Shown: positions 4,609 through 31,054 of the stretch, one piece after another
Position numbering within the stretch: position 1 is the stretch's first letter
Layout: every line of letters starts with the position of its first letter
Assembly (NCBI GenBank): GCA_026415975.1
Contig: JAOAFZ010000001.1
Location: 62,001 to 126,000, forward strand
Reading direction: 5' to 3'
Length of the DNA: 64,000 nt
Source of the DNA: Patescibacteria group bacterium
GTDB lineage: Bacteria; Patescibacteriota; Microgenomatia; UBA1406; GWC2-37-13
The notes under the pieces: model-generated
Told to the model about the DNA's origin: nothing
Database searches by the model: none
What the model saw: only the letters and a program-made list of their open reading frames with translations
Position numbers and translations under genes: made by a program

Positions 4609-7600
4609 ATGACCACCCCCGAGAGCGGGCCTCCCCCGCCGTCTCCGGAACAGAATCCTGCAGTCCAGGAACTGGAGCAACTCAAGCGCCAGGTTGCCAA
4701 GATGACTACTCAAACGGTCCTGAATGCCCTCCTCGATACCGAGCAAGAGGCAGAAGATATACGGGATGTCATTACTTATGCGAGTATCCATGATGCACAG
4801 GTTGAGTTGAAAGGAAGCCCGAATGATCCTGATTCGTATCTCGCCCGGGCGAAGCAGGTAAAGCGTGCCGTTCAAGTGGTACTTCTGTCCGCATCAGGTG
4901 TCGGGCCTCCCCCCCCGGATGTGCGGGGAATTAATGATCCCGATATACTGCAAAGTGCCCGCCAGATCACAAAAGATGTTTTGCATGAGATAAACCAGAA
5001 AATACAACTGCACAGTATCACCGATAAATCTGCACCGTACTACCACCGGCTCCTCTGTCGCTTATTTGACGGCACCATTACGAATGTACATGATCTTTCG
5101 ACTGAATTTGCCAAGCTGCAAGGCTTAGCGAGGGTAGCGGGTGGTCAGTACGAACAGTTGCGCTTGGCTCTGGCGGCAGTTGCAAAGAGTAGAGGTTTCA
5201 GGGAATTCGAGATAAACGAAATGTTTAAGTCTGTCAAAGATATGAACAGCAGTAGTACGGAGTTTCAGCGTGGTGAACCGAATACTCAGAAAATAATCGC
5301 CGAAATACGGCGTGATAAGCGCGCCACGGAAATGGGACTGGAGGAGTTGTACAATGCGTTCGAGACAGCTGATACATTCGAAAAGTACTATAGGGAAATC
5401 TTTGCGAAATATCGGGATCAGAAGGTTGCAGATAAGTATAAAGAATATCTTCGTTCACGAAAACCGGGTGTTTCCGAGGAGGAGCTGGAAGCTTTTGCCG
5501 TAAAACGGGCCAAAGAAGAGGCAACCCGCGAGGTTCACCGCAAGCTTATTTACTTGGTAAATCTGTTTTACAAACCGGTACTTACCGCGGCACCCAACCA
5601 GCGACTGCGTCAGGTAATACAGGAACTTACCGGCCCGTACACTCCCAACCCGGATAATATGTTTAATCATCTGAAGTCCCGGATGAAATCTATTGCCGAA
5701 GCCAAACTCGAAGATGTACAGAACGAAGCAAGTAGTATCTTTATGGGGTACCATCAGGATACGAGAACCGTTATCGATACAGAGCGCCGTGAACAGATTA
5801 CCACCAAGGCGGCAACGAAGGAACTAAAAGAGGTGAATTTTGACACCTTCATTAAACAAGCTGTAACGATCATAAGCACCGAGCGAAGTGTTCTGGAATA
5901 TGGTCACGACTTTCGCTTTGCAACTTTAAAGGGTACAGGAGATAAAAAGTTCATGGAGCAAATTGCCGCTTTTGCCGCGGAGTCCATCGAGAGTGCCGAC
6001 ATTGATATTATTAATACCGTTGAGTACAGTGAGCTTGTACAGGCCGCCCGGGTTCAGCTGGAACGGCAGTTTAAAATTGCCTTCTCCAAAGCCCGCTGGC
6101 GACGTGATGATAGTTTTTTACGCGAGGTTTTTGAAGAGGGAAGCAAAATAGAGCGTGATATACGGGCAAGCTTACTGCGGGACTTCGTGGAGGCGCACCC
6201 CGATCAGGCTGATCGATACCCAGAGTTAATTATAGACAGATGTCTTTCTCATGCAAAAACACTTCTTTTTGGGAAAGAGTTTATGCTGCACCTTATGGCT
6301 AGCTATGCCGATCCGAACCTCCTGCATGGCGGCAAACCGACCTACTCCCGTGATCCGTATGGGAATGCCGCGATATTTCAGCCGGTTGATGCTGTAATCC
6401 GGTGGGGTGCTGGCGATATTACGGATCTCGACAATAACCATGAATACTTTCTTCCCTTCGAGGAAAACGCGATCTTTTATGATGTAGACGAACGTTGGCG
6501 GCGCGGGCGGAAGGAGTTTTTTGAGTCGTTTGACTTCGGCATGGCCGCGTTCAAGGATAAACCACCTACCATTGCCTTAATGGGAAATATCTGCAGAGCA
6601 GGGGGTGTGGATGCGTGGGGTGGCTACCGCTTGCAGATGGCCTATGTAAACTGGATAGAAGACCTCCGCGATCCACGTTCGTATTACCGGGAATTAAACG
6701 TTAAGGATGGGCCCGAAGATTTGCTGGTTGAGGGCTGGAAGCGCATCGAAAACATTGGTGTGAATGTGCTTAGGAACTTTACGTCCAGTTATCTTTTTAC
6801 CGATTTACATCTACTGGAATCAGAGACCTGGAAGCGGTCTCACCCTGATTTCAACGGTCTTGATCCCCGGGTAGTCACAAGGTATCAAAAGCTCTTCGGG
6901 TTTTTCTACGATCGGTATCTCGGTTACGAAGGCAGCGTTGGTTCTGCGTTTCTGGAAGGGAGAAACAGGGAGCAATACATCGACTACATGACCAAGCTCC
7001 TTTGTGACACCAAAGATGGGGACAGAAAGGACAAACTGACGAAAGAGATGTACAAGGTGTACTCTGTTCTATTGTTTGAACGGTCTCCGCTTGAGTTTAT
7101 CTCTATGGAGAAGCCGCGATTAACCCAGAATGGAGTAACATTACTCTCCGAGATCCAGAATCAGTTTGTCCGTGAGGCAGGCGGGGAACGGGAAGGTGCA
7201 GAACGCCTTGATGCCGCACTCGCGGACTTGACCTACCTGGAGACGCGCGCACGACTGGATTCGATCAAGCAAATGGAAGAAATTCGGGCGGGAAAAAAGG
7301 CCATCGGGAGTACCCCAAACCTCTATGGAGATCTTACCGCAACACGAAGCGCAGTATTAATGAATGATAATGGTGTTGGAGGCTACATGATTAATGAGGA
7401 CTACATAAAAAACGTCATCAGGAAAAAATACACCGGTACGCTCTCCGAAAAAGAGATAGAGGAGCGTATCAAGAATGCTACTCACCTGTATAAAAGCATA
7501 AAAACCCGTCTTCTCGACAGACCGGAGCATAACCATACGATTGAGAGTTTTCAGGCAGAGGGCGATACACTGGAAGAAAAGGAGAGGAATAAAGCTGAAA

Positions 7601-8319
7601 TGAGAAGGAAACTAAGTAATGCAGAGAGTAAAATGAGTACGCGCGTAAACTGGTGGGCTGAGGCCTGGGAGAAAGGTCTTTTTCAAATGGAATTTACCTC
7701 GGATACGGCTGATCAATTCCTCGACCGGAATGCCACCGGACCCGATACGATTGCCAATGCGGCGGAAGGCTGTGCAAACACTGCGGAAGCAATAAGTGAG
7801 TTTTTCGGCTTCAAGTTCAAAGCTGCCCTCAAACAAGCTGCAATTGAGAAAGATTTTACCAAAATCTATGAGCTCATGGGAGAGCTCAAAGATAAAATTG
7901 AGATGCAGGACGGTAGTTTGTGGGATCACGTCGTCGGACCCTTGATGGTAAAGAGAATTCTGAATACATTTATGCGGGATGAGCGTTCCTATGGATTCTT
8001 GGGCGCCGGGAATCTTGTAGATACCATTGCCGACCGTCCCAGCTCTATCTCTGAGACGTACACCGAGTCGGAGGGTCCAGGGCGTAAACGACCCTGGAGC
8101 TGGACACGAACAGATGCTCTGGACTTTCTGGACGGTGCAAAAGGCATGACCAGCGGTCAAAAAATAGATAACGACATGTTCAAGAAACTGCGAAAGTACG
8201 CAAAAGCTGGTTCATGGGAGATGTTCTTTAGAGTTATGTTGCCGGTGCTCGGTATGGCAGCACTTGCTGTTTTTGTTCTGGCTATGCAGCAGGGAATAAA
8301 AGAGAATAAAGGTAACTAA
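4609..8319 (+). CDS. Giant soluble helical protein with C-terminal membrane anchor, unknown function
   Basis: The product has 1236 aa and I do not recognise its family. The N-terminus is Pro-rich (SGPPPPSPEQ), then about 1150 residues of charged, mostly helical sequence follow. The only strong hydrophobic segment is at the very end (about residues 1208-1228, MFFRVMLPVLGMAALAVFVLAM), followed by roughly eight polar residues. This is the layout of a tail-anchored protein with its bulk in the cytoplasm. No Walker, protease or nuclease motif is visible. The start is set by TATAAT 5 nt upstream. It is followed after 21 nt by a secreted VirB2-like protein, so it is probably the cytoplasmic part of the same envelope machine, but that role is inferred. 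Confidence 0.85.
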   Translation: MTTPESGPPPPSPEQNPAVQELEQLKRQVAKMTTQTVLNALLDTEQEAEDIRDVITYASIHDAQVELKGSPNDPDSYLARAKQVKRAVQVVLLSASGVGPPPPDVRGINDPDILQSARQITKDVLHEINQKIQLHSITDKSAPYYHRLLCRLFDGTITNVHDLSTEFAKLQGLARVAGGQYEQLRLALAAVAKSRGFREFEINEMFKSVKDMNSSSTEFQRGEPNTQKIIAEIRRDKRATEMGLEELYNAFETADTFEKYYREIFAKYRDQKVADKYKEYLRSRKPGVSEEELEAFAVKRAKEEATREVHRKLIYLVNLFYKPVLTAAPNQRLRQVIQELTGPYTPNPDNMFNHLKSRMKSIAEAKLEDVQNEASSIFMGYHQDTRTVIDTERREQITTKAATKELKEVNFDTFIKQAVTIISTERSVLEYGHDFRFATLKGTGDKKFMEQIAAFAAESIESADIDIINTVEYSELVQAARVQLERQFKIAFSKARWRRDDSFLREVFEEGSKIERDIRASLLRDFVEAHPDQADRYPELIIDRCLSHAKTLLFGKEFMLHLMASYADPNLLHGGKPTYSRDPYGNAAIFQPVDAVIRWGAGDITDLDNNHEYFLPFEENAIFYDVDERWRRGRKEFFESFDFGMAAFKDKPPTIALMGNICRAGGVDAWGGYRLQMAYVNWIEDLRDPRSYYRELNVKDGPEDLLVEGWKRIENIGVNVLRNFTSSYLFTDLHLLESETWKRSHPDFNGLDPRVVTRYQKLFGFFYDRYLGYEGSVGSAFLEGRNREQYIDYMTKLLCDTKDGDRKDKLTKEMYKVYSVLLFERSPLEFISMEKPRLTQNGVTLLSEIQNQFVREAGGEREGAERLDAALADLTYLETRARLDSIKQMEEIRAGKKAIGSTPNLYGDLTATRSAVLMNDNGVGGYMINEDYIKNVIRKKYTGTLSEKEIEERIKNATHLYKSIKTRLLDRPEHNHTIESFQAEGDTLEEKERNKAEMRRKLSNAESKMSTRVNWWAEAWEKGLFQMEFTSDTADQFLDRNATGPDTIANAAEGCANTAEAISEFFGFKFKAALKQAAIEKDFTKIYELMGELKDKIEMQDGSLWDHVVGPLMVKRILNTFMRDERSYGFLGAGNLVDTIADRPSSISETYTESEGPGRKRPWSWTRTDALDFLDGAKGMTSGQKIDNDMFKKLRKYAKAGSWEMFFRVMLPVLGMAALAVFVLAMQQGIKENKGN

Positions 8320-8340
8320 GATAATGGCGTATAATGAATT

Positions 8341-9123
8341 ATGCGGTTGTTTCTCGTAGTGCTGGTGTTGGGGGTTGTCGTGTTTGGGGGGGTTGCTCCT
8401 GTTTCTGCAGCGCCTACCCCTTCGCCAACTCCTATTACCTGTGGCATCGCAGGGGATCCTGACAGAAACAAGTGTTGTCCACAAGTAAATGTGAGACAAG
8501 TTATTAGGGGTAATGTTGGTAATGTTTCGCGTGTGGTTGACCCCGTAAGCACAATTCTTATTGGCATTTTCGATCTTTTTTTGCAAAATTCTGATGGTAT
8601 TTCCCTTATCGAGAATCTCCAAATTCAATGTGTAAACGGGGTTCCCGATCCAGCTACCGCTGAAGATCCGAATGCCTGCACCTGTATCATTCCGGAAAAG
8701 CCGGTATTGAATACCAGTATGGCACTGCTCTGTAAAAGATACATCAAACCCGATGTCCGGCCAGATGAGTACCGGAAGTGCATGGAATGTGCTGCAGGCA
8801 ACTATGAGCAGGCAGGTACCTCTGAAACAGCTTCCGGATTTGGTGGATACTACTCCGCAATCGGGTGTGTTCCAACGAGGCTCGAGAATTTTATCAGTAA
8901 CTTTGTTTTGCGGGTAGGGATTGGCATAGCTGGTATGGTCTCGCTCGCGTGTATTATTTATTCAGCTATACTCCTGCAGGTTTCACAAGGAAACCCCGAT
9001 ACTATACAAAAAGCACGGGATCAAATCACATCATGCATTATTGGTTTACTCATGATTATCTTCTCAATCTTCATTCTCCGGATCATTGGTGTGGAGATTC
9101 TCCGGATACCCGGCTTCGGATAA
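8341..9123 (+). CDS. Secreted Cys-rich protein with VirB2/TrbC-like two-helix C-terminus
   Basis: 260 aa. A signal peptide (MRLFLVVLVLGVVVFGG, cleavage likely near the ALA-like SAA at about residue 22) precedes a PTPSPTP linker. A central extracellular part has about a dozen Cys (NKCCPQV, CTCII, CMECAAG). The last 85 residues form two membrane helices joined by a short polar loop (SQGNPDTIQKARDQI), ending in RIIGVEIL. This helix-loop-helix resembles VirB2/TrbC-type pilins and resembles the 121-aa protein at 20587-20952. TATAAT at 8330-8335 lies 5 nt before the ATG, so the message may be leaderless. It converges on the minus-strand operon. A disulfide-rich pilin or pilin-like adaptor is likely. 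Confidence 0.8.
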   Translation: MRLFLVVLVLGVVVFGGVAPVSAAPTPSPTPITCGIAGDPDRNKCCPQVNVRQVIRGNVGNVSRVVDPVSTILIGIFDLFLQNSDGISLIENLQIQCVNGVPDPATAEDPNACTCIIPEKPVLNTSMALLCKRYIKPDVRPDEYRKCMECAAGNYEQAGTSETASGFGGYYSAIGCVPTRLENFISNFVLRVGIGIAGMVSLACIIYSAILLQVSQGNPDTIQKARDQITSCIIGLLMIIFSIFILRIIGVEILRIPGFG

Positions 9124-9210
9124 CTACCAGAAGAGGGTGGGCCGCCAAAACTCTTGCCCCCCACTCCTGCCCCCGAGGCGTCGTGGGCTGGCATCTCATA
9201 AAATTTCCCT

Positions 9211-10971
9211 TTAACCCGATTGGTCACTACCAACTTCACCTATTGGCACGGGATTTTCACTCTTATTCTTTGGCTTGACAGCCCCAGTTACCTGATTAAT
9301 AAGCGGAACTCTTCTTATAAAATTACCAAGCGCAGTATCGGGATCCACAAGCTTTGCAAACTGGGCAAGCCCGGCATACTGGCCTACAACCGCCCCGGCC
9401 GCACCGGCAACACCGCCAAACAGCGCTGCCGGACCCGCATCGATAACGGGCTTCCCGGCAATCTGCTCCTGAACTTGCCGCACGAGTTGGGGGATCAAAA
9501 GCATAAAGGCCGCCGCAATGATTGGTGCTAATCGTGAGGTATCCATATTGAGCGGGGGAAGCGTAAACTGCGGAAGACCGGATTCTATACTCCACCCCAC
9601 CGTATCTCGTCCAAATTCATACTGACCCCAGCCGATAAGCTGCTCGTCGTTTAATGCAACAAGTTGCACCACGATCAAGAGAACTATAGTCAGCGGGAAC
9701 ACCAGCATGTTACCGAAGATGCGGCGCAGCCAGCTCATAAACGCATCGTTTCCCGGGATAACACTGGGGAGTATCATAATCGGAGCAAAAATAATATCGA
9801 TGAGGATACGCACATAGGCAGAGATTAACATAAACAGAATCCGGAAAAACAAGAAAAGCATTATAACCAAGCCGAGAACCACCGGGAGGATTATTTGCAA
9901 GAATAATGGTATTGCAAAAAGTATAAGGGTATAAAGTACCGGCAAAACAACAAAATATCCTAATGCTGCCTTTACATTGAAAAGAACTATTCCTCCTTCG
10001 CCAATAATTTGGTTGATTGGCGTAAAGACCTTCGTTCTATCTACTGCATCTACTATCAAATAAAACAGCCATCCGGCAACAATAGGATAAAGCAGTGACT
10101 TAATCCAGGAGGGAATAAAATCAACAAGCCCCTGAATTCCTTGGACGTAGAAATGTAGATACCGCGCATCGTAGAACTCGCTGGTGATCAAGGGCGCCTC
10201 GGAGTGAATATAAAGATCCTGGAGGTACTGCGCAGACAGACTGGGAATGTTTAGTCCTCCGAACAATCCGAAACATATTAGGAGCAGAATATACATCAGG
10301 TCAACCATAAACCCCACAATAGCAAACGAAAAAGTAATAAGCAGGAGCGTGATCACGATTCGGGGCAGAGAATTTTCAATGGAAATTACTGTGTTGCTGT
10401 CTATCTGATAGCGGAACATGATCATAAACCCAACCACCACAATACCAATTGCAATCAGAAAGTAAGTGATATTGCGGAATAGTTTCCAGATCGTTGAGTA
10501 AGCCGTGAGCGAATTGAAGCCGAGGCCCTGTGCGTAGACGGCAGGGGTAAAACCGGCATTTTGCATTCCATCATGAAGCCAGGCAATACCGGATGCGGGT
10601 GGGTTAGCAAACGGCAAGGTCATTAATCCCGTAGCCATTCCCAGCACGCTGCCGCTGAAGTTTGCGTCTGCATCAGCCGGATCATCGGTACATGCCTCAC
10701 CGATCAACGCACAGAATGATTCCCGAAGCAATGCCCGCTGCATCTGACCGGCCTGGGACTCCGTCAACTTGGGGCTATTGAGGATGCTATAGAGCTCGTA
10801 GCGGTAATCTGCCATAGCATCTTTCGGATTTTTTAGCCGAACAATATCCTTCTGATGGTAGTGAATAAACAGGCCGCTTATCGCCAGCAGCACAGCCATT
10901 ACCACGATAACTTTGTTCGTAAAGCGCACGAATTTCCTGTATATAGCTAGTGCTGGCCGAAACTTATCCAT
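9211..10971 (-). CDS. VirB6/TrbL-like polytopic membrane protein
   Basis: 586 aa. One N-terminal helix (KVIVVMAVLLAISGLF) is followed by an extracellular loop of about 110 residues with CALIGEAC, and then at least seven hydrophobic segments, including a long set rich in Ile, Leu and Phe (residues about 345-430). The C-terminus has Gly/Ala-rich sequence (FGGVAGAAGAVVGQYAGL) and a polar tail. Number of helices, loop and Gly/Ala tail fit the VirB6/TrbL channel component of type IV secretion systems; identity is not provable by eye. I prefer ATG 10971 to the upstream TTG at 10992, because a promoter (TTGACA, 18 bp, TACAAT) ends 5 nt before it. Last gene of the minus-strand arm. Confidence 0.8.
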   Translation of the reverse strand: MDKFRPALAIYRKFVRFTNKVIVVMAVLLAISGLFIHYHQKDIVRLKNPKDAMADYRYELYSILNSPKLTESQAGQMQRALLRESFCALIGEACTDDPADADANFSGSVLGMATGLMTLPFANPPASGIAWLHDGMQNAGFTPAVYAQGLGFNSLTAYSTIWKLFRNITYFLIAIGIVVVGFMIMFRYQIDSNTVISIENSLPRIVITLLLITFSFAIVGFMVDLMYILLLICFGLFGGLNIPSLSAQYLQDLYIHSEAPLITSEFYDARYLHFYVQGIQGLVDFIPSWIKSLLYPIVAGWLFYLIVDAVDRTKVFTPINQIIGEGGIVLFNVKAALGYFVVLPVLYTLILFAIPLFLQIILPVVLGLVIMLFLFFRILFMLISAYVRILIDIIFAPIMILPSVIPGNDAFMSWLRRIFGNMLVFPLTIVLLIVVQLVALNDEQLIGWGQYEFGRDTVGWSIESGLPQFTLPPLNMDTSRLAPIIAAAFMLLIPQLVRQVQEQIAGKPVIDAGPAALFGGVAGAAGAVVGQYAGLAQFAKLVDPDTALGNFIRRVPLINQVTGAVKPKNKSENPVPIGEVGSDQSG

Positions 10972-10976
10972 ACTGC

Positions 10977-11006
10977 ATTGTAGTCGAACCAAAAGGGTGC
11001 TGTCAA
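10977..11006 (-). promoter_or_regulatory. Promoter for the VirB6-like gene
   Basis: On the minus strand TTGACA (11006-11001), an 18-bp spacer and TACAAT (10982-10977), then 5 nt to ATG 10971. The -35 overlaps the end of the preceding gene. The distance predicts a leaderless transcript, so the last gene of the operon can be expressed alone. Confidence 0.6.
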
Positions 11007-11512
11007 TTCACAAGAGCCTCCGGTGAGGCAGGCGGCGGTGTTGGTGCAAATGCCGGTGCGGTAGTAAACACAAAGACCCGCCTGAGTTGCTGTAATGTAT
11101 TAATACTGTAGGTATACTCTGTTTCCGGGAGTAACGGCTCTAGAAACTCGACGGTGAGGATTGTTCCGTTCGTCCGGAGCCGATATCTGATATCCGGCTG
11201 TATGGCAAAGATAACGTCATCGTAACTTAAACGCTGGTTAAACGTAGCTACAATTGTCGTATCAAGCGGCACATTCGTCGCTCCATCGGCAGGTGTGGAC
11301 TCTACAAGTGCCAATGGCGTTTCTAGAACTGCCGTAGGGCGGGCTGTCGGCCGCGCGTCGCGTATGGGAGTCGGGGAGGGCACAGGGGATGGTGTGGGTG
11401 TCGGCCGGGCGAGTTCTTCCCGCTGGACATTCACAACAAGAGTCATTAACCATAAAAACACTACTAGAAGCAGCAGAATGCCGGCAGTTAGAAAAAAGGC
11501 ACCTTTACTCAT
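11003..11512 (-). CDS. Membrane-anchored protein with Big_5-type Ig-like domain
   Basis: 169 aa. One N-terminal anchor (FFLTAGILLLLVVFLWLMTLVV), a Pro/Thr linker (about residues 35-65), and an Ig-like domain with the Big_5 (SbsA) signature: ESTPADGATNVPLDTTIVATF at its start, LTVEFLEPLLPETEYTYSI near the end. It acts outside the cell at the membrane. The start overlaps the stop of the upstream gene by 4 nt (ATGA), so translation is probably coupled. Its Ig domain parallels the first half of the 251-aa protein two genes upstream. Confidence 0.82.
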   Translation of the reverse strand: MSKGAFFLTAGILLLLVVFLWLMTLVVNVQREELARPTPTPSPVPSPTPIRDARPTARPTAVLETPLALVESTPADGATNVPLDTTIVATFNQRLSYDDVIFAIQPDIRYRLRTNGTILTVEFLEPLLPETEYTYSINTLQQLRRVFVFTTAPAFAPTPPPASPEALVN

Positions 11513-11973
11513 TCGCGGGGTATCTGAATTTTATATTCGCGCAAGTCCTCAATCCGTTGCAGACCGTGCTCCTGCAGGAACTGCCCTAGCTCTGCCAGTG
11601 CCTGCGTCTCGTCTTCTTCCTTAAACTGAATAATATATTTCAGCTGATACTCATCATACCAAATTTTGAAGTAGCTGCCTTCGTAGGGCACACTGTCACG
11701 AAAATCTCCTTCTTTTTCCATGTATGCAAGCGTCGGGATCATAGTTTTATCTGCGATCTCCTGTGCTCTGGTATATTCTTCCGATTCCTGAAAAATCGGT
11801 TGATCTACGGCGCTTTGTACAATCTCGACTGTTGGTGCCAGGGTAACGGTGGGAGTCGGTGCTACATCAGGCGAGCCGTTGTCCCGGACGACCCGCTGTA
11901 TGAACGAAAACAACAGCATTAGCACCAAAAGAATACTAAGAGAAATTATAAGGAATAGTCGTGTGCGGTTCAT
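11509..11973 (-). CDS. Membrane-anchored small alpha/beta protein, unknown function
   Basis: 154 aa. N-terminal helix (LFLIISLSILLVLMLLFSFI), linker with PTPTVTLAPT, then an extracellular domain of about 95 residues ending LQRIEDLREYKIQIP. The pattern PYEGSYFKIWYDEYQLKYIIQF followed by AELGQFLQEHGL matches, in order and spacing, the C-terminal half of the 251-aa protein encoded at 13781-14536 (PYETDRFRI, YYAFRVV, VEAWMRSIGL). The two are probably paralogous modules. The family is not recognised. It sits 6 nt after the C39 gene. Confidence 0.8.
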   Translation of the reverse strand: MNRTRLFLIISLSILLVLMLLFSFIQRVVRDNGSPDVAPTPTVTLAPTVEIVQSAVDQPIFQESEEYTRAQEIADKTMIPTLAYMEKEGDFRDSVPYEGSYFKIWYDEYQLKYIIQFKEEDETQALAELGQFLQEHGLQRIEDLREYKIQIPRE

Positions 11974-11979
11974 AGGAAA

Positions 11980-13788
11980 TTATGATTTACAGACTGCAAT
12001 GTAATAGTAATTTGCGTACTGGGAGGCATCCTGGAAGTTTGAAATCTCGCGACCCGCGCGCGGCCGGCATACTGGTGATCGCCAGGTGTCACGTACGTCG
12101 ATACGGTTCGTAGCAGGATCGGCATCCACAATCGGAAAGATATGATTAAATGTGTTTCCGTCAACTTTTTTTTGTGAGCCGAATACTAGGCATCTCCCGC
12201 GGTTCTCTCCGGTTAAAAAAGGAGCAATCTCGGCAGCCTGAACCGGGGCAACTCTGGTTTTTGCTACCACAAATCCCTTTCCGCGTGTATAGTCGTCTTT
12301 TAATGCCCCCAGAAGTGTGTTCATACCTACCGCGCGGCTCCAGTACCTTCCCTTAAGAACATCATAGGTTCCCGTTCCCTCGGCATTCGTGGGCACCGTT
12401 GGTGAGCCAAGCGCAGAAAAAATCATTGCCATACTGGTAAGTCCGCACCCCGACATGCAGATATCGTCGTTGCCCCCTTGATTCCAGCGCTGATCACACT
12501 GACAAAATTGCTCAATCTGGACGTTTCCGAAGTTGGGATTGAATGATGCATTGCTACTGCCGGAGCTTTCCTGGGAAGACCTGTTGTCACGGATTTCCCT
12601 AACTTCGTTTACCACGACCTCACGATCAAACTTACGCAAAGCAAGGAGCATTCCGCTGAGGCGATCCACGTTTTCGACAACATATTTCGCCCACCCTCTC
12701 CCGGTCTCAAGTCTCCGTTTAATGTCGTTTGGCAAAGATGCAACAGCAGATGCATTCAGAGCAACCCGCATACAGGGGTCTTTACCCAGGAGCAAGGTAA
12801 AAAACTGTGTACGCTCTTCGGCTTCCCGCTCGGCCGGGGAAAGCGGTTCCCCCCCTTCGCCCAGAAGGTCCATCTGGCTCTTATTCCGGGCTATTACCGA
12901 GAAGGGCACCGAATCAACTTCATCTTTAAATTTGGCTACCAGTTTTTTCCCTGCCTGATTTCCATAACTCCAGAACGGATTCACAGAAGATGAACTGTTC
13001 GTGAATGCCCGGGAGAGCACTCGATTAAAGTTCGATTCTGCATGACACAGGGGAAAGTACTTAGCATAGTGCCCGTATACCGCCTGATCAAACGCCTGAT
13101 ACCCCCCAACCTGCAGCATACTGTTCTGATCACCCGGGCGGTCATTAGCCGCAGAGCACGGTTCCGCCACACTCTGTCTTAATTCACGCGAACTGTTATC
13201 CTTGCAGTTGACTGCATTCGGATCAAGTGCCCCTTCGAACCACACCCAGGCACAGGAAAGGTACGGTCGGATATCGCTAATTTTTCCTTTGAGTGCCTTT
13301 TCGTAGATCAGACAGTCGCGTGCCCATGAACGGAGCGGGTTGCGCAGTAATTGCTCGTATAGGCCTTGGACAATTGCCTCCGAAGGTTGTTTCAGACGTG
13401 AGTCGGTGAGTCCGTAGGTTGCAAGTGATTCGTCGCCGGGAGTGTAGTTTTCCAGAATTGCGTTATCGAGAACCACCGCTGAGTTGTTTGGACCGGTTTC
13501 ATCTTCGGTCATCCATTCTTCAAGCGGCACATCGGAAGGGAATGGTGTCCCGGATAGTGCATCGCGCAAGGCATTGCGCAGCCGCGATGGCATTTCGTTT
13601 TCTAACTCCTGGGGGACATCGGATGAGCTTTTTCCGAAGAGAGTTTCCAGAATTGCCTGGAATAAAGTCTTAAACTCCGTCGGGTTGGGTGTGGGTGGCA
13701 CAGGCGTTTGTGCTAATACTCTGTTCCCCAGGAGAAGGAAAACAGTAAGTGCCAGTGCTGCAAGCGCTCCGCCGACCTGCTTATTCAT
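11980..13788 (-). CDS. Secreted C39-like (papain-fold) peptidase of the envelope locus
   Basis: 602 aa. A signal peptide (LAALALTVFLLLGNRVLA) is followed by a PTPNPT linker and a long helical region (residues about 40-400) with several Cys. The C-terminal domain is Peptidase_C39_2-like: QFCQCDQRWNQ, then the nucleophile in MSGCGLTSMAM (about Cys447), and the His in TFNHIFPIVDAD (about His549). Such domains cut peptides or cell-wall cross-bridges. In this locus it would be the wall-opening enzyme of the machine, like VirB1 or the CHAP proteins of Gram-positive conjugation systems; that role is inferred. It overlaps the upstream gene by 8 nt. Confidence 0.85.
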   Translation of the reverse strand: MNKQVGGALAALALTVFLLLGNRVLAQTPVPPTPNPTEFKTLFQAILETLFGKSSSDVPQELENEMPSRLRNALRDALSGTPFPSDVPLEEWMTEDETGPNNSAVVLDNAILENYTPGDESLATYGLTDSRLKQPSEAIVQGLYEQLLRNPLRSWARDCLIYEKALKGKISDIRPYLSCAWVWFEGALDPNAVNCKDNSSRELRQSVAEPCSAANDRPGDQNSMLQVGGYQAFDQAVYGHYAKYFPLCHAESNFNRVLSRAFTNSSSSVNPFWSYGNQAGKKLVAKFKDEVDSVPFSVIARNKSQMDLLGEGGEPLSPAEREAEERTQFFTLLLGKDPCMRVALNASAVASLPNDIKRRLETGRGWAKYVVENVDRLSGMLLALRKFDREVVVNEVREIRDNRSSQESSGSSNASFNPNFGNVQIEQFCQCDQRWNQGGNDDICMSGCGLTSMAMIFSALGSPTVPTNAEGTGTYDVLKGRYWSRAVGMNTLLGALKDDYTRGKGFVVAKTRVAPVQAAEIAPFLTGENRGRCLVFGSQKKVDGNTFNHIFPIVDADPATNRIDVRDTWRSPVCRPRAGREISNFQDASQYANYYYIAVCKS

Positions 13789-14536
13789 AGGTAATGCTCA
13801 ATCTATCAATAGCTGATTGTGGCAGCCCGATGGAACGCATCCAGGCTTCAACTTCGGCCTGCACGTCGGTACCATCACGGGAAACTACCCGAAAGGCGTA
13901 ATATGTTTCAGGTTCAGTACGCAGCTCGGAAGTTATGCGAAAACGGTCTGTTTCGTAAGGAATACGGTTATGAAGGTAAAGATCAGGATTCTCCTGAAGC
14001 TGGAGCTTGTCTATTGTTTCATTTATAGCCGGGTCGTTGACCATTATCCCCGGGGTAGGAGTTGGTCCGGCAGTCAGGAACAGACCAAATACTGCCTCGC
14101 CCGTGTCTTTGGTAATTGCATAGGCATATTGCCGGCCGGGCTCAAGGGGGCGTGCAAAGCGTATACGCACGGTATCATTGGTTACCTGGTAGCCGTAGAG
14201 TGCGGCGGGGTTAAACTCAATTTTTATCCCTGTTGTTGTAACTGGCTGTGAAAGGCGGATCACAAGACTTGCACCGGTTGTTGCCAGCGGTGTCTCTTGA
14301 TCCGGTTCTACAGATAGGATACGAAAATCCCGGGATGTCGACCCGAAACCTGATTGCGGTGATGGAAACGGAGATATAGTCGGGTTATTACCGAAATCTC
14401 CGGATAATTCCGCTCCCAAAGGTGTCCTGGTATCGGGCTGACGCATCCGTATAATGACTGCAATACTCAGCAGGATGAGTAATAAGGTGGAGCCGAGAAG
14501 AATGGCAATCAGTATGTAACGCGATGGTATTTTCAT
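13781..14536 (-). CDS. Membrane-anchored Ig-like plus alpha/beta two-domain protein
   Basis: 251 aa. I place the start at ATG 14536 ([15 protein letters not shown]) rather than an upstream codon, because it overlaps the preceding stop as TAATG. It has one anchor helix at residues 8-28. A Big_5-like Ig domain (about 70-160) carries VRIRFARPLEPGRQYAYAIT. A C-terminal domain of about 80 residues resembles the 154-aa protein of the same operon. This gene therefore combines the modules that are separate in the genes at 11003 and 11509. Function unknown; probably an extracellular structural part. Confidence 0.8.
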   Translation of the reverse strand: MKIPSRYILIAILLGSTLLLILLSIAVIIRMRQPDTRTPLGAELSGDFGNNPTISPFPSPQSGFGSTSRDFRILSVEPDQETPLATTGASLVIRLSQPVTTTGIKIEFNPAALYGYQVTNDTVRIRFARPLEPGRQYAYAITKDTGEAVFGLFLTAGPTPTPGIMVNDPAINETIDKLQLQENPDLYLHNRIPYETDRFRITSELRTEPETYYAFRVVSRDGTDVQAEVEAWMRSIGLPQSAIDRLSITYE

Positions 14537-15801
14537 TATCGGGTTGTTGGAACAAGACAATGTGTGGGTCGCCAGGAACTTGAAGCGGATAGTGACCTTC
14601 GGTCCACCTCTCCTTTGAACCATCCCGAGGAACTCTTAGAACCGGTATTTGCATCGATCAAAGTGTAATATGATCTATTCGCATCTTCAAACTGGGCAAT
14701 CCCTATATGTAGACTATAGATTACCCACATAATCTGCCCTGGCTTGACCTGTTGTCGGCATTGGTCCCAGGTACGAGTGGTAAAAACTGCGTTTATTGCA
14801 CTTTTCCCGATAGCATCCTGTGGCCAGCCGACTCCCCAGAACGGGTTCTGGGTTTTTGGGAGGTCGTTTCTTAATGCTGAATACATTCCCTGTGCCCAGC
14901 CCATACACTGCAACCCCCGGGAGCATATTCCCCTTGCACAGTATTCCATAGATGCATTATCCATCATATATTGTTTGGTATTCGGTTTATTCCGCAACGA
15001 AGGTAAAGAGTTAATGCACTGCATCCGGTTTTCGGGCAGCACCTGACCATTACAGTTTGCCTGGATTTCTGTCCATACCTGGCAGACGTAACGAAACCAA
15101 CCGTCAGCATATTGCTTGCAGGTTTCCGCACTTACCGGCGGGCCGGCCTCCTGTGATGACTCTGACCCGGAACCTCCCGTGCTTGACGAATCGTCACCGG
15201 TTTCCTCGCTTCCGCCATCGCCGGCGTTATTGTCGTTGCCACTGCTCCCGCCGGATCGCGGCCAGAGGATTGCAATGATGTCGGTTAACTTTGGAACTTC
15301 TTTTTTTATCCGGTCACGGATTTTGTCTGATTCCTCTGTTGCTACTTTATCGAAGTCTTCGTCACGAAGGGTAAAGGTTTGCGAGCTTTTTAGCTGGGAA
15401 CAACGGTCTGCACCGTTGTCACATCCCCGGAACTGATAGGCGATTAGCTCCACAGTCTTTGTATCTTTCGGCACGCTCAGCGGTACTGTACAGGCAATTC
15501 GGGCTATTGGTTCACCCTCGCCTTCTATCCAGCCGAGAAACAGACCACTGTCCGACCGGCAGGCGCCGCCACCCCCGGGTGCAAAGTATTCTTTGCCATC
15601 GAAAACCAGGTTTGCCGTTAGATTTTCTGATATTTCCGATGCTTTTACTTGTACTTCAAAAACCAGCCCTCGGCGCAGGTCGGTAGTATTTGCCCGAACA
15701 TCGAAGAGGGAGATGGTGGCCGCTGACACGGATGGGGGAAATGAACTTATGAGGCTCAGGAATAACCCGCATGCAACAATTACGGTAATAATTCTATTCA
15801 T
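14536..15801 (-). CDS. Secreted CHAP-domain cell-wall hydrolase candidate
   Basis: 421 aa from ATG 15801 (a TTG at 15807 is also possible). Signal peptide ([18 protein letters not shown]), a beta-rich domain (residues about 30-140), a Gly/Ser/Asp-rich linker (about 180-215) and a C-terminal CHAP-type domain. Its nucleophile is in [10 protein letters not shown] (about Cys297), His in LHIGIAQF (about His365), and the polar third residue probably in LIDANTG. CHAP enzymes are amidases or endopeptidases of peptidoglycan. First gene of the minus-strand arm, divergent from the ClpC-like gene with 34 nt between the starts, so both arms are controlled from one short region. Confidence 0.85.
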
Positions 15802-15829
15802 TGACAAACGTTTTCCGATTATTCATAAT
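15801..15829 (+). promoter_or_regulatory. Promoter of the ClpC-like gene
   Basis: TTGACA at 15801-15806, a 17-bp spacer and CATAAT at 15824-15829, 6 nt before ATG 15836. A near-consensus promoter this close to the start predicts a leaderless mRNA. The -35 touches the start codon of the divergent CHAP gene. Confidence 0.7.
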
Positions 15830-15835
15830 GGACCT

Positions 15836-18800
15836 ATGCCCGGTATTTTTGATTTTATAAAGAAACAACCTGCTCCTGCAAGTGGTGCGAACAATAGTCA
15901 AGCTCAGGCTGTGCGCGGTTCTCAAACTCAGGCCGTCGTGACAAGTCAGCAATCGTATAACGGCATTGGTACCCCGCCGGGCGGACAGGCTTCCTATAAC
16001 GGCATTGGTACGCCAGTAGCTACTGTAGTAGTAGAGACTACCCAGCAGCCGGCTCAGCCAATACAGCCTTTGCAAACACCAACACCACCTTCATCCACCG
16101 GGTCCGAAGCGGTCACACCTGACCCAATTTCAAATACTGTTTCTGGCAACGCAGCTGCGGTTTCCAGTGGTAGTGGCGTATCTGATACTTCAACTACTGA
16201 CGCACCGGGAAGTGTGCCGGGAACTGCACAGGGGGCCGCAACGGACGGCGTGTCTTCTGATGCTACTCCAGCAGATGCAGCTTCCACAGAGGATGCCAAT
16301 AACAGTACTACTGCTCCGGCGGATAAAAATGCAAACAGCGATTCTGGCACAACTGACACAACAAGCGGTGAAAAAAAAGAAGAAAAGGATGATGTAGCAA
16401 GCAAAAAAGCTGATTCACGTGCAGATACAGATACAAAAGCTGATGAAAAAAAACGGCTGGATATGGATGTGATGACGCACCTTACGCAGCGTTCCAACAG
16501 AGTTTTTCTCTCTGCAAACAACAAAGCAAAAGAGCTCAATAGCGCCGAGGTTGACAGTGAACACCTGCTACATGGTCTGCTTGCTGATCCGGAAATATAT
16601 AAACTCCTGACTAGTATGAAGATAATGCCACAGGCAGTCGATCAGGAGCTGGATAAGATATATAAAAAAGGTGAAACTCCGGTTCCCGCTCCACAGACCG
16701 CACCTCGGGTAAAGCATATACTGGATAATTCACTGGTTATTGCGCGCAAAATGGGGTACGAATTTATTTCGCCCGAGCATTTACTGCTTGCAACCTACGA
16801 GGAAGGTGAAGGTGTTGCTGCGCAAACTTTAAAGAAACTTGGAGTTAACAAAGAGGAGCTTAATAAAAAAATCCTCGGTAAGAAAGAAGGGCTGGATGAG
16901 AAGTCCGGTGACGGAAAAGTCCAGAAAAGTGCGATTGCCCAGTTCACCATTGATCTGACGGCGAAAGCCGAATCGGGGCAACTTGATCCGTGTGTTGGAA
17001 GATCAGATGTAATTGAGCGGGTTATTCACATAATGTCCCGCCGGTTGAAGAACAATCCGGTACTAACCGGTGAGCCGGGAGTTGGAAAAACTGCGATTGT
17101 AGAGGGACTTGCGCAGGCTATTGTGGCAAAGAAAGTGCCGGAACAGCTCCTTGGCAAACGAATTATGCAACTTGATCTTATGAGCGTGGTTGCAGGTGCA
17201 TCGCACCGGGGTGAGTTTGAACAGCGAATGAAGAGTCTGGTGGATGAAGTAAAAGAAGGAAAAGGACAGATTATTCTCTTTATCGACGAAATCCATACGA
17301 TTGTTGGTGCGGGAGGGGGAGGTGAAGGCTCACTGGATGCCTCGAATTTTATTAAACCGGCGCTTTCCCGAGGCGAGTTGCAGATGATCGGTGCTACTAC
17401 AATCACCGAGTATAAGCGGATCGAAAAAGATGCAGCTCTCGAGCGTCGTTTCCAGAGCGTGCTAGTTCCGGAACCAACCGAAGAGCAGGCAATTAAGATG
17501 CTTAAAGCACTTAGGAACAAGTTTGAAGCCTTCCACAAGGTCAAAATCCCTGATGAAGCGATAGAAAACGCGGTAAAGCTTTCAAAACGGTATTTGAGCG
17601 ATCGCTTTCTGCCTGACAAAGCAGTAGACCTTATGGACGAAGCTGCATCCGCTGTACGATTGCCACTTATGTCCCTTCCGGAGGAAATTCAGAGCGGTAC
17701 TGAACGAATCGCTCAGCTGAAACAGGAACATGAAGAAGCAGAAAAGCGGGGTGACCGGGTAAAAGCACGCATCATTAAATCCAAGATCGCAGACTTGGAA
17801 GATCAGCTCAAGGCTAAAAAAGATGAGTACGACATGAAGAAAGCCCAGACCACCACGGTAGTAACGACAGACATCATCCGGGACGTTATATCAAAGCGCA
17901 CCGGTATTCCGGTTTCCAAGATTACATCCAGCGAGGGTGATAAGATTCAGCATCTGGAAGACATAATGCATGAGCGTCTTATCGGACAGGAACGTGCTGT
18001 TAAGACAGTAGCACAGGCAGTACGCCGTGGTCGCGCAGGACTCAAGGCGGCAAACCGGCCGATTGGATCGTTTATTTTCCTGGGACCGTCCGGTGTAGGA
18101 AAAACGGAGCTTGCCAAAACCCTCGCCGAGATTCTCTTCGGGCAGGAAGAGAGCATGATCCGTTTTGATATGACGGAGTACATGGAAAAACATGAAGTTG
18201 CCAAACTTCTTGGTCCACCTCCCGGATATGTCGGTTACGAAGAGGGTGGGAAACTAACCGAGGCCGTGCGCCTGCGTCAGTATTCCGTTGTCCTCTTTGA
18301 TGAGGTGGAAAAAGCACACCCTGATATCTTTAATATCCTTCTGCAGATTCTTGATGATGGCCGGTTAACTGATAACAAGGGAAGGACTATCTCTTTTAAA
18401 AATACAGTAGTTATTTGTACCTCCAATATTGGTACAAAGCTCATTCAGGAAGAACTGCTCAAGCAGAATAAAGGCCAGGTCGAGGAACCACCGGTGGTCT
18501 CTACTTACGCGTTTTCACCTCGTGGTCGCGAGATTCTGACCATTGGAAACAAGTATTTCGAGCGTGACCCCAATACAAAGCTTTCGGATTCCGGGAAGCC
18601 CTCTGCCGATTCAAAAAAGGTTACAGAGCAGAAGCCTGACGACGCGAAAGCTGATATCGGCGCGAAGGATGCGAAGGCGGAAACCAACCCGGAAACAGCG
18701 AAACCCGGAGATGCCCGAGCAGGAGAGGCTGCGAAGGAAATGAAGAAGCCTGACACGGAAGGCTCGGATTTTGCGAAAAATGGTGTAAAAGATTCGGCTG

Positions 18801-20416
18801 AAAAGACTAAGACGGAAACCAAATCCGAGTCAAAGAAAGCCGATGAAGTCAAGGCTGAAGCTGGAACATCAAACTGGATAGAGGGATTACTTTTTGACTA
18901 CTTTGCCGGTCAGAAGCTTGAGAGGGCGAAGCCGGTCCAGAATGATGCTGAGGATGTCGAGGGTGAAGTGCCATCCGCGCCTGCTGCCCCGGTTGTTCTT
19001 GTAGATGACAAAGACCTCCAGTTTCCGGTGCTGGGGTATGACACGCATGCCATTTCCTCCAAGGGAGTTGAGATGATTTCACGTGATTCGTTGTTGTATT
19101 TCCGCAACTCGACAACGTCGAAGATCTGGAGCGTAACAAACCTGATTGATTACATGAAAGACAATATCGTAATAAACGCACTTCCTGATGCTCCCGATGA
19201 GCAGCTTCCCACGGCCCGTCTTAAAACACATGCTTTTTCACCGGATGAGAAAGAGATAGTAACCTTTCGTGACCGTTTCTGGAGACGCACTGAAGGTGCC
19301 ACGGACTGGGAGACCGGATATCTAAAGGATTACTTCCTTGATCAGACGCTACCGGAAGGAAACTTCCCGGTGACCCATTGGGATATTCATACCTTTTCAC
19401 CATCCGGTCAGGAGGTGATCGTGGTCGGAGAGACAATCTGGACGCGTCCCACAAACAGTAATCAGTGGAAGCAGCAGAGCCTGCATGATTATTTCGGTGC
19501 CGACTTCCCCCTGGAAAAAGAAATAGAAGAGAAGAACCGGATAGAATCCGAGTCCGAGGCAAAAAAGTACGATGTCATTAAAAGTAGGGTTCTAAATGAG
19601 CTCCTTAAGTTCTTCCGTCCCGAGCTTGTAAACCGGTTTGATGAAGTTATTGTATTTGAGCCGCTGAAGTTTGCACACATGATTGCAATCGTGAAGCTTC
19701 AGCTGAAAGCACTTTCTAGGATGCTCGAAGAACAGGAACTGGGCTTTTCTTATACGGATGCAGCAGTAAAGGAAATCGTCCGTTCCGGTTTTGATCCTGT
19801 ATTCGGCGCGCGACCACTACGCAGGGCAATCCAGCGTTTGCTTGAGAATCCGATTTCCGAGCTTATCATTGCGCAGACGGTAAAGCCAGGAGACTTTATC
19901 TATGTAGACTGGGATGGCGAAAAGTTTGTCTTCGATGTTGAACGGACGGAGGTAATTGCAAATGGAAGTACAACACCCAAGAACTTTACCCCCCTAGAGA
20001 TCAGGCCGTTTGTAGAAAAATACTATAGCTCAGACAAAGATGCTATACTAAAAAACCTTGAGGAACAATTCCCTGATCTTCTAGACGAACAGGAAGCGCT
20101 GGCAAACGATAGGGCACTCGAAGAGGCAAAAAAAGGTTTTTCGGCAGAAAAAAAAGAATCTGAAACGCCCCAGGAAGACAGGAAAGCAGAAGAAACTACG
20201 CTGCTGTCTTCGGAACAGGTTCAAACAGAGCCGGCCTCGCCGGAAAATTCGCCGGAACAACAATCTGCTCCAGCGGAGCAGACTGATACACCATCGCGGA
20301 ATGTTATGCCCCCTGCATCCGTTTCCCAAAAAGGAGCCGCAGGCTTAAACGGTGCTCATCCGGACGGACCAGCTGCACTTGATAGCCAGACGGGAAAACC
20401 TGCAGGGCCGGTATAA
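15836..20416 (+). CDS. Giant ClpC-like AAA+ unfoldase with repeat insert in the second ATPase domain
   Basis: 1526 aa from ATG 15836, chosen from the promoter that ends 6 nt upstream. Order: a low-complexity Ser/Thr/Ala/Pro region with a repeated YNGIGTP (1-205); Clp_N (about 207-350); AAA1 with GEPGVGKT (about 412) and FIDEIH; a short ClpC-type coiled coil; AAA2 with GPSGVGKT (about 750) and [11 protein letters not shown]. After [12 protein letters not shown] (about 862) an insert of roughly 365 residues follows, and the fold resumes at [13 protein letters not shown] (about 1258). The insert holds four F/I-S-P/S-x-G/E...W...L-x-DY-F/M repeats, the first split by about 95 Lys/Glu/Ala/Asp residues. 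In ClpA/ClpC the ClpP-docking loop lies there. An acidic Pro-rich tail (1400-1526) ends it. ATP-driven protein remodelling is known for the family; service to the envelope machine is inferred. Confidence 0.93.
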
Positions 20417-20428
20417 TTATTTCCGGTT

Positions 20429-20590
20429 ATGCAAACTAACTATACGCCACTTGATCTGAAGAAATTCGGAATCAAAAAGCCGAGACAGCCTGTAACAGTC
20501 GATACAATCCTGGTGGCGATCATTTTCTTAACGATCGTGGTGCTTGGTATACTGGTATTTATGTTGTTGCAAAAGCAAGGAATCATATGA
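20429..20590 (+). CDS. Small 53-aa single-pass membrane protein
   Basis: The 53-codon frame codes for a polar N-terminus (MQTNYTPLDLKKFGIKKPRQ), one strong membrane helix (TILVAIIFLTIVVLGILVFMLL) and a short QKQG end. The stop overlaps the next start as ATGA, which indicates translational coupling to the pilin-like gene. TATAAT at 20412-20417 lies 11 nt upstream, over the end of the ClpC-like gene. It is probably a small part of the same envelope complex. Confidence 0.75.
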   Translation: MQTNYTPLDLKKFGIKKPRQPVTVDTILVAIIFLTIVVLGILVFMLLQKQGII

Positions 20591-20952
20591 AATTACTGGC
20601 ACAAAATACGACACCCTTTCCAACCTGTAATCCCGGGCAGGGTTTACGGATAGGTGAGAATGCAGCTACGAACTCCATTTGTAATCCTTACTTGCGAGGT
20701 GATATCCAGAATATCGGGGATATTGTGAATATCGTATTGCCCTTTTTGTATGGGATTGCCGGAGTCATACTTTTTCTGGTGATAATCTGGGGCGGATATG
20801 ATATCCTCTTTTCAGCGGGAAATGCAGACAAAGTGGGTGCTGGCCGCATGAAGATAATCTCGGGACTGATCGGATTCGTGCTACTAGTTGTAGCATACCT
20901 GCTTGCTCGGATTTTTGCGTACATGTTCGGGTTAAGCGGCGGGATAGTATAA
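20587..20952 (+). CDS. VirB2/TrbC-like pilin-type two-helix membrane protein
   Basis: 121 aa. A polar N-terminus of about 45 residues with two Cys is followed by two hydrophobic helices (IVNIVLPFLYGIAGVILFLVIIWG and IISGLIGFVLLVVAYLLARIFAYM) joined by a short loop, FSAGNADKVGAGRMK. This helix-loop-helix with a small Gly/Asn/Lys loop is typical of VirB2/TrbC-type subunits. There is no obvious cleavable signal peptide. It starts inside the stop codon of the 53-aa gene. Together with the VirB6-like and CHAP proteins it supports a type IV secretion-like reading of the locus. Confidence 0.8.
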   Translation: MKLLAQNTTPFPTCNPGQGLRIGENAATNSICNPYLRGDIQNIGDIVNIVLPFLYGIAGVILFLVIIWGGYDILFSAGNADKVGAGRMKIISGLIGFVLLVVAYLLARIFAYMFGLSGGIV

Positions 20953-30078: not shown

Positions 30079-31054
30079 CTTCCTCGACTGAATAGGTAGA
30101 TTGTGATCCGCTGAAAATGGTATACACCCCTCCTATTTCTGCATTGCCCCAGGTATCATACAGATTCCTCGAGAAAGTGTCAGAGAGATGAGTGTGAAGG
30201 AACGGTGTTGGAGTGGGTGTCGGTGAAGGGAGAATAACAGAGTTCTCGGTAGAGTAGTTGTCAAACTGAGCCTGTACAGGAAAGACAGCGCTATCTATGT
30301 TGACAGGGTAGGTCATGATCCCGGAAGACCCAGCATTCTGAAGCACAGGTTCATTATCGGTAGCAGAGAGTGTCCAGCTAGTAGGCTCAGATAGGTTAGC
30401 CCTCCACACTTTTATTCTGACGGTAGTGGGATTACTTCCGATAACCTCGGTGCGAACCAGGTAGTCCACGTTTTCAACAAAAACTGTGTTCGGAGCAGTT
30501 GTATCAGTCGTAAGCGCCGTTTGCGTACCGTTCACTATTTTTCTTAGTCCAACAACCGAGTTGAGACCGTTTCCCCGAAACGTCACCGAGGGCCGGTACT
30601 CCGTGTTCAGTGGAGTCTGTATTCTAGCTGCGAAGGTAATAGTAACTGTTGCCGACGTGTTAAGAGCCTTATTGATTCGAACTCGAGACAGAACGGACGT
30701 GTTGGTGAATTGGACGCCCGGCACGTACAAACCGCGATTTGATGTGTTCGCAAGCGAGATTGTCCCATATTCTCCATTTACGGCGAAAGAACTAGCACTT
30801 CCCGATGAAATAACCCATGCATGACCACTTGTACTTGTACCCCATCCATTGGCAACCGTGCGTGTAAATTCGTCAATAACATGCGAACTTGCCCGCGCGA
30901 GTGGAACTAAAAACAACCGCGACACAAAGAAAACAGCTAGAAACGCGACGGCAAGAAAAAACAACTTCTTTGCAGACATAGCTAAAAATTCTTCGTCGGC
31001 AGGACGGCTAAAAAGGAACTTTAACACAAACCACACCGTGCGCAACCACGCCAC
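29981..31054 (-). CDS. N-terminal ORF of the frameshifted glycosidase: membrane anchor and carbohydrate-binding-like module
   Basis: 357 codons from GTG 31054; TATAGT lies 8 nt upstream and TTTACA 16 bp before that. A hydrophobic anchor or signal (FFLAVAFLAVFFVSRLFLV, about 31-50) is followed by a jellyroll-like module (about 55-270; TVRIKVWRANLSEPTSW), a SPTPTPTP linker (about 278-288) and the start of a second copy (LSDTFSRNLYDTWGNAEIGG). That copy is completed in the next ORF. The ORFs overlap by 98 nt in different frames, and the modules align only if the frame changes by one near 30030-30045. The last 25 or so residues printed by this frame are therefore spurious. Confidence 0.75.
   Translation of the reverse strand: MAWLRTVWFVLKFLFSRPADEEFLAMSAKKLFFLAVAFLAVFFVSRLFLVPLARASSHVIDEFTRTVANGWGTSTSGHAWVISSGSASSFAVNGEYGTISLANTSNRGLYVPGVQFTNTSVLSRVRINKALNTSATVTITFAARIQTPLNTEYRPSVTFRGNGLNSVVGLRKIVNGTQTALTTDTTAPNTVFVENVDYLVRTEVIGSNPTTVRIKVWRANLSEPTSWTLSATDNEPVLQNAGSSGIMTYPVNIDSAVFPVQAQFDNYSTENSVILPSPTPTPTPFLHTHLSDTFSRNLYDTWGNAEIGGVYTIFSGSQSTYSVEEGEGRVLLENNNRTKVYRCLRLSLRKSSYAGKV

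Follow-up and report, generated by a model that had tools for sequence, protein, structure and literature searches.

A 64,000-nucleotide stretch from the genome of an ultra-small Patescibacteria (CPR) group bacterium of the class Microgenomatia (G000:C2:62001-126000, hereafter the window; assembly of 1.31 Mb, 96.6% complete) carries, between positions 4609 and 20952, a locus encoding two VirB2-like pilins, a VirB6-like membrane protein, putative wall hydrolases and a ClpC-type AAA+ ATPase. Our results support the assignment of this locus to the pilus and channel half of the known Patescibacteria type IV secretion system (T4SS). We are modestly inclined to a fuller reading, in which this half is powered by a VirB4 encoded elsewhere and is served by ClpC as a dedicated unfoldase working independently of ClpP. 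Close relatives in named collections are labelled mostly Candidatus Roizmanbacteria, Microgenomates and Woesebacteria.

The Patescibacteria T4SS was described by Quinonero-Coronel et al. (2025; PMC12102498) from VirB4 outward, as a VirB4/TrsD/PrgI/VirB2 set with components dispersed in the genomes; in Microgenomatia the same authors reported scarce VirB6, unlinked VirD4-type proteins and pilin arrays, and they described Gracilibacteria as lacking VirB6. The genome under study encodes one VirB4 (G000:C8:39441-41255), which matched P-loop_TraG with an E value of 2.7e-28 and 99.2 bits against a cut-off of 25.8. It is adjoined by a 395-amino acid (aa) PrgI-like protein, whose match (E 1.6e-5, 25.8 bits) lies under the cut-off of 27, and by a 218-aa protein with no Pfam match, which was labelled TrsD-like from its size, its position and PMC12102498. 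Both neighbours are conserved beside VirB4 in other families. Searches for VirB4 and VirB6-like homologues covered 37 genomes, the present one counted in, and returned VirB4 in 34 of them, nearly all at about 65-83% identity to the copy described here. In other Microgenomatia (Gottesman-, Woese- and Levybacteria and genome G026) virB6 and the large gene convergent with it lie beside PrgI-TrsD-VirB4, most of these loci (L038/G026, L117, L118, L128, L131, L133, L135, L136, L137 and L141) also having pilin genes; in some with virB6 beside PrgI-TrsD the fetched stretch stops short of VirB4. Here VirB4 lies on contig C8 and the pilin/VirB6 locus on C2, so that the clustering within about 20 coding sequences of virB4, a usual though not required trait of this T4SS, is seen in other Microgenomatia but not in this genome. 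Since the VirB4 set is present in the genome and stands beside virB6 in other Microgenomatia, the window locus is taken to be the pilus and channel half of a single T4SS, split off from the VirB4 set.

The original prediction, made from the window sequence, had proposed an envelope machine with type IV secretion parts and had seen no VirB4, VirD4 or relaxase. The envelope machine and its type IV secretion parts are supported, the latter by the pilin match, by synteny and by the homologues beside PrgI-TrsD-VirB4. VirB4 is indeed missing from the locus, but the search of the full genome for VirB4/TraC, proposed then as a check, found the copy on C8. Two VirD4-type ATPase candidates also exist, both unlinked; no relaxase was matched with PF03432 (other MOB families were not searched). 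The idea of a new kind of machine has to be given up in favour of a split, extended form of the Patescibacteria T4SS (PMC12102498).

The gene order is kept across the family. valS-yidC-jag, the gene for a protein of about 1,200 aa and a pilin gene converge on virB6, the genes for small proteins and those for wall enzymes; the order continues with a divergent ClpC, a small protein, in some cases a protein called p227, a pilin, p445 and recF. In the 60 Roizmanbacteria-type loci of a second collection, with neighbours counted only on contigs with room for them, virB6 was accompanied, beyond what chance would give, by the convergent pilin in 50/50 usable loci, by the ~1,200-aa gene in 43/45, by yidC in 33/35 and by the divergent ClpC in 31/36. 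Pilin/virB6/large-gene synteny was traced across 80 loci, most of them from named organisms. Conserved synteny of at least four genes, which the original prediction had set as its own check, was thus found, well over four genes recurring in relatives.

The link between ClpC and the T4SS was evaluated starting from 137 genomes sampled across the class, in which families carry labels such as f1 or f25 and a ClpC gene counted as linked when a T4SS gene lay no more than 5 kb away. The window-type ClpC clade was linked in 29 of 34 genomes (the f1 count resting partly on locus maps of relatives), as against one of 24 control Clp genes comprising ClpB, ClpP-type ClpC and the f15 type; the Fisher test returned a p of 2.8e-10, with genomes of the same family not independent. 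By family, ClpC was linked in six and unlinked in four. The arrangements vary: ClpC stands by a pilin and virB6 in f1 and f2 and by pilins in f5, forms a row pilin-VirB6L-ClpC in f18 and f31, and in f25 is divergent from, and directly beside, PrgI-TrsD-VirB4, with p227 on its other side. The association of the locus with a ClpC-type ATPase, as first proposed, is therefore real. p227 is a membrane protein of about 227 aa that adjoins ClpC in f1 and f25, has HExxH in its sequence and gave sub-threshold M50 matches; at the locus described here it is missing, and a 31%-identical homologue lies at C3:243282.

ClpC (15836-20416, plus strand, 1526 aa) was identified as a T4SS-linked member of its family from Pfam domains (Clp_N, AAA, AAA_lid_9, AAA_2 and ClpB_D2-small), alignment and clade placement. 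An N-terminal FDFIKK peptide and a Pro-rich linker with YNGIG motifs precede Clp_N, D1 and a D2 with an insert, and the Walker motifs are intact in most of the sequences examined. In ClpA and ClpC the ClpP-binding loop lies in D2, between the sensor-1 TSN-G motif and FRPEL. At this site the alignment placed an insert of about 360 aa in the window protein (18479-19552), made up of about four ~50-aa repeats (hxFSPxgxEivtxxxxxWxR...W...LxDYF) that flank a low-complexity stretch. Relatives have a similar insert or a short linker, and the GF motif is missing in nearly all, the window ClpC included; in 20 relatives the repeat sequence occurred only at Clp-like places. The D1 pore loop bears a histidine (A-S-H-R-G-E-F and similar) in nearly all members of the clade, in place of the Tyr or Phe of ClpB and ClpP-type ClpC. 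A DNA pattern for this histidine loop was run on 381 genomes of the phylum; it required exact codons and missed members of the class, and the search is therefore not a census. Outside the class it gave two matches, one of them, in G439, being a ClpC with a VirB6L homologue as its immediate neighbour, while the other (G294) was rejected as a member of the clade, being ClpB-like.

No ClpP match was obtained in the present genome assembly, and strong matches (E below 1e-70) in the class sample were confined to families f20 and f32. The Clp proteins of these two families form a separate clade, two f20 ClpC having an LGF loop, and the window ClpC falls, with a support of 89/93, in one clade that excludes the ClpC proteins of families having ClpP. 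In this tree the sequence of the window protein covers only 45% of the columns retained, and there are long branches for three Clp rows of the membrane-anchored type. A role as partner of ClpP was rejected for this genome, given the unmatched ClpP and the D2 loop lacking GF. Two side observations concern Clp proteins. A C-terminal zinc-ribbon-like motif (C..C...C..C) is kept by most f1 relatives and missing from the window ClpC (19900-20416). L003 (G000:C4:214430) encodes a Clp-like protein with two AAA+ domains and membrane stretches at its N-terminus, and Clp proteins of 788-805 aa, possibly of a similar type, occur at L173, L174, L175 and L177, where the rows pilin-VirB6L-ClpC of f18 and f31 lie a few kb away.

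Pilin A (20587-20952, plus strand, 121 aa, two transmembrane stretches) exceeded the cut-off of T4SS_pilin PF18895 (34.6 bits against 26.6, E 2e-8) and matched the NCBIfam Mbov_0395 pilin-like model under its cut-off (E 1.4e-7). The Cys-rich pilin B (8341-9123, plus strand, 260 aa), which is the pilin convergent with virB6, fell just short of the same PF18895 cut-off with 25.7 bits (E 1.2e-5). A second pilin-like pair, of 152 and 109 aa and with pilin-profile matches, was observed about 6-7 kb before the window (L040:12396-13180 on G000:C2), adjoining an apparent undecaprenyl-diphosphate-synthase-type gene and mevalonate-pathway genes.

The polytopic VirB6-like protein (9211-10971, minus strand; 586 aa from the ATG, the start moving to 10992 if TTG is used) was present in 33 of the 37 genomes and in 22/22 of those at least 90% complete. 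It had no significant Pfam match, a PDB sequence profile search gave nothing, and TrbL_5 matched weakly (E 0.0025) in one of 25 relatives. Its AlphaFold2 model had a predicted local distance difference test (pLDDT) score of 77. When this model was compared by Foldseek with 350,542 PDB chains, the top four hits were DotA of Dot/Icm and three TrwJ/VirB5-TrwI/VirB6 stalk chains, at E values of 0.14-2.9, for which reason the fold match is suggestive only. From genomic linkage and this weak structural signal, the family is a good candidate for the VirB6 of Microgenomatia.

The 1236-aa member of the ~1,200-aa family (4609-8319, plus strand) has a single transmembrane-like stretch, at residues 1204-1231, in agreement with the tail anchor originally proposed; it is predicted to be tail-anchored, in an orientation that we infer. 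No recognised family was found in Pfam, NCBIfam or PDB sequences. The AlphaFold2 model of residues 41-1236 is confident and almost wholly helical (pLDDT 83.5, predicted template modelling score 0.81) and gave no significant fold match in PDB or BFVD. Since the C-terminal ~200 columns of the family match the Gottesmanbacteria-type proteins encoded convergently with virB6 (hhalign probability 96.6), the protein looks, on profile comparison, like a class-wide T4SS component.

The remaining genes of the minus strand encode surface proteins and putative wall enzymes. The 169-aa Ig-like protein (11003-11512) is a Big_5 protein (PF13205, E 7.7e-10) with one transmembrane-like stretch at residues 1-32. 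Iterative profiles joined the domain of the small bitopic alpha/beta protein (11509-11973, 154 aa) to the C-terminus of the two-module bitopic protein (13781-14536, 251 aa, Ig-like plus alpha/beta, assigned from sequence, profiles and transmembrane reading) and to wall enzymes of relatives, in all of which this domain apparently recurs. The C39-like cysteine peptidase (11980-13788, 602 aa, signal-like N-terminus) has a CGLTS/His motif, and C39_2 PF13529 was matched over its cut-off in three scanned relatives at the same place. In the CHAP-like putative wall hydrolase (14536-15801, 421 aa) Cys/His motifs were recognised by eye, and one relative scored 25.2 against the CHAP cut-off of 26 at this place. 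Neither window enzyme had a significant Pfam match of its own; a wall role of VirB1 type may be assigned to the C39-like peptidase. On the plus strand, a 53-aa bitopic membrane protein (20429-20590) is conserved and follows ClpC in many relatives.

Compared with the Patescibacteria T4SS as described (PMC12102498), the present system shares VirB4 and its putative PrgI- and TrsD-like neighbours, the VirB2-like pilins, a place on the chromosome and the absence of a match to the relaxase model PF03432, but keeps the pilin-VirB6-large-gene module apart from VirB4 in this family and adds the VirB6 candidate, the large protein of about 1,200 aa and the pair formed by ClpC and p227. VirB4, the PrgI- and TrsD-like genes and CHAP-like wall hydrolases are also common to the MPF-FATA T4SS of monoderms (pCF10 Prg, pGO1 Trs), from which it differs in its VirB2-like pilins, C39-like enzymes, ClpC companion and, within the same relaxase model, absence of a relaxase match. 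Clp_N, D1, the short middle domain, D2 and, in most sequences, the Walker motifs are those of the ClpC-ClpP (Hsp100) protease, whereas the unmatched ClpP, the missing GF loop, the pore-loop histidine, the FDFIKK/YNGIG tail and, in most relatives of the window copy, the zinc-ribbon-like motif set this ClpC apart. With ClpV (TssH) of type VI secretion it has in common the tie of a Clp ATPase to a secretion locus without a peptidase partner; however, it scored 702.5 bits with NCBIfam TssH, under the cut-off of 884.95, and its neighbours are T4SS genes (type VI secretion genes were not searched for).

In the mechanism that we propose, a single chromosomal T4SS would comprise the two VirB2-like pilins, the divergent VirB6 channel protein and wall hydrolases in the role of VirB1, with the Ig-like and alpha/beta surface proteins and the tail-anchored helical protein as putative further parts. 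The power would come from VirB4, whose gene lies elsewhere in the genome together with those of its PrgI/VirB3- and TrsD-like partners, and ClpC most likely serves the machine as a dedicated, ClpP-independent unfoldase. The changed D2 exit face, from which the ClpP loop is lost and which often has a repeat insert instead, may dock on a T4SS or membrane component rather than on ClpP, and ClpC would most likely unfold proteins bound for the VirB6/VirB4 channel; substrates, transport direction and contact with a host cell are conjectural. A bolder form, which we consider doubtful, is that a secretion channel has taken the place of the protease as partner of the Clp ring, which, with its exit face on the T4SS, threads unfolded polypeptides through it, out to or in from a host cell. 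Several observations weigh against the unfoldase reading. Besides the non-independence of genomes in the Fisher test, no T4SS gene was found within 5 kb of the ClpC of f4, f21, f24 and f16, although the contig measures just 3.7 kb in f16 and the distance is 5.05 kb in f24; in f18 and f31 ClpC sits with a paralogous larger VirB6 and not with the window type; the clade support is short of full; the sequence gives weak grounds for VirB6 identity, and the fold match falls short of statistical significance; and several f1 members are without the D2 insert, on which alone the docking idea therefore cannot rest.

The main rival, which we judge possible rather than probable, makes ClpC a remodeller akin to ClpV that would extract or recycle pilins, VirB6 or complexes, with p227 trimming or clearing membrane subunits and no transported substrates. 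It explains the neighbouring pilins and p227 nearly as well as the unfoldase does: the gene right next to ClpC is most often that of a pilin or of VirB6 (f1, f2, f18, f31 and f5), p227 with its HExxH and sub-threshold M50 matches adjoins ClpC in two families, and ClpV is itself a Clp ATPase of a secretion system. However, the neighbours in f25 are PrgI-TrsD-VirB4 and not pilins, the present genome keeps its p227 away from the locus, and we know of no sheath-like structure in a T4SS. That ClpC is a housekeeping chaperone whose place is a matter of position only appears improbable; it would agree with the neighbours yidC, jag and recF and with the frequent location of Patescibacteria T4SS genes near the replication origin (PMC12102498), but the linkage holds through several arrangements and families, one in another class, control Clp genes are unlinked but for one of 24, the genome has a separate ClpB, and changes in the pore loop and the ClpP loop set the clade apart. 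We find it very improbable that the pilin and VirB6-like parts belong to an unrelated envelope apparatus, as the missing Pfam VirB6 match and non-significant fold match might suggest, given that one pilin exceeds the T4SS_pilin cut-off, homologues adjoin PrgI-TrsD-VirB4 and the fold search is headed by DotA and TrwI. Least credible is a new export machine in which ClpC supplies the energy in place of VirB4, as first proposed from its conserved position beside virB6 and pilins at a locus without VirB4; this replacement was rejected in view of the VirB4 of this genome, with its TrsD-like and PrgI-like genes, of VirB4 in 34/37 genomes, and of the position of VirB4 next to virB6 in other Microgenomatia and next to ClpC in f25.

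The plus arm (ClpC, the 53-aa protein and pilin A), the minus arm (the CHAP-like to the VirB6-like gene) and the second plus set (the 1236-aa protein and pilin B) were all in place as originally laid out, and the divergent region between the CHAP-like gene and ClpC has exactly the expected 34 nt (15802-15835). The minus-arm junctions, given earlier as overlaps of 1-8 nt and gaps of 6-10 nt, measure 1, 8 and 4 nt where genes overlap and 6 and 10 nt where they are spaced, the last becoming 31 nt with the ATG start of VirB6. A CATAAT box lies 8 nt upstream of the ClpC ATG inside the divergent region, and a leaderless start of the ClpC transcript from this box is possible. TATAAT-like boxes within about 20 nt upstream of the starts at 4609, 8341, 10971, 15836 and 20429 suggest leaderless transcripts. 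Over the whole window such a box stood by a candidate ATG in 8 of 42 genes against 1.4% per background ATG, a rough comparison, as several ATGs were tried per gene.

Elsewhere in the window, two minus-strand open reading frames (29981-31054 and 27490-30078) look by eye like one gene (27490-31054) whose frame changes near 30,000; the former has a second beta-rich module that seems to run on in the frame of the latter. An 872-aa secreted-looking protein (24844-27462, plus strand) has Kelch repeats next to a Laminin_G_3 domain of concanavalin-like type and matched dockerin weakly, and a 1,453-aa protein (34577-38938, plus strand) gave only sub-threshold transglycosylase and transpeptidase matches.

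As far as we found, the association of ClpC with a T4SS is undescribed. The word Clp is absent from the main texts of PMC12102498 and of a T4SS review (PMC12857230), and among open-access papers the one that names the candidate phyla radiation, ClpC and type IV secretion together means by clpC the stress genes of the host. Protein substrates of T4SSs are reported to need unfolding, as cited in PMC12857230, and in a Saccharibacterium surveyed for gene essentiality the T4SS is essential for growth, in a role still unknown (PMC11665869). A likely Microgenomatia VirB6, and a probable dedicated, ClpP-independent unfoldase that accompanies the machine through several rearrangements, offer a concrete handle: type IV secretion may include a separate, Clp-driven step in which transported or structural proteins are unfolded. 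To our knowledge, no Clp partner of a T4SS has been known before, and this one would be the first, as a counterpart to the ClpV of type VI secretion. If the bolder form above is true, a lineage that presumably lives on other bacteria would possess an unfoldase-fed T4SS.

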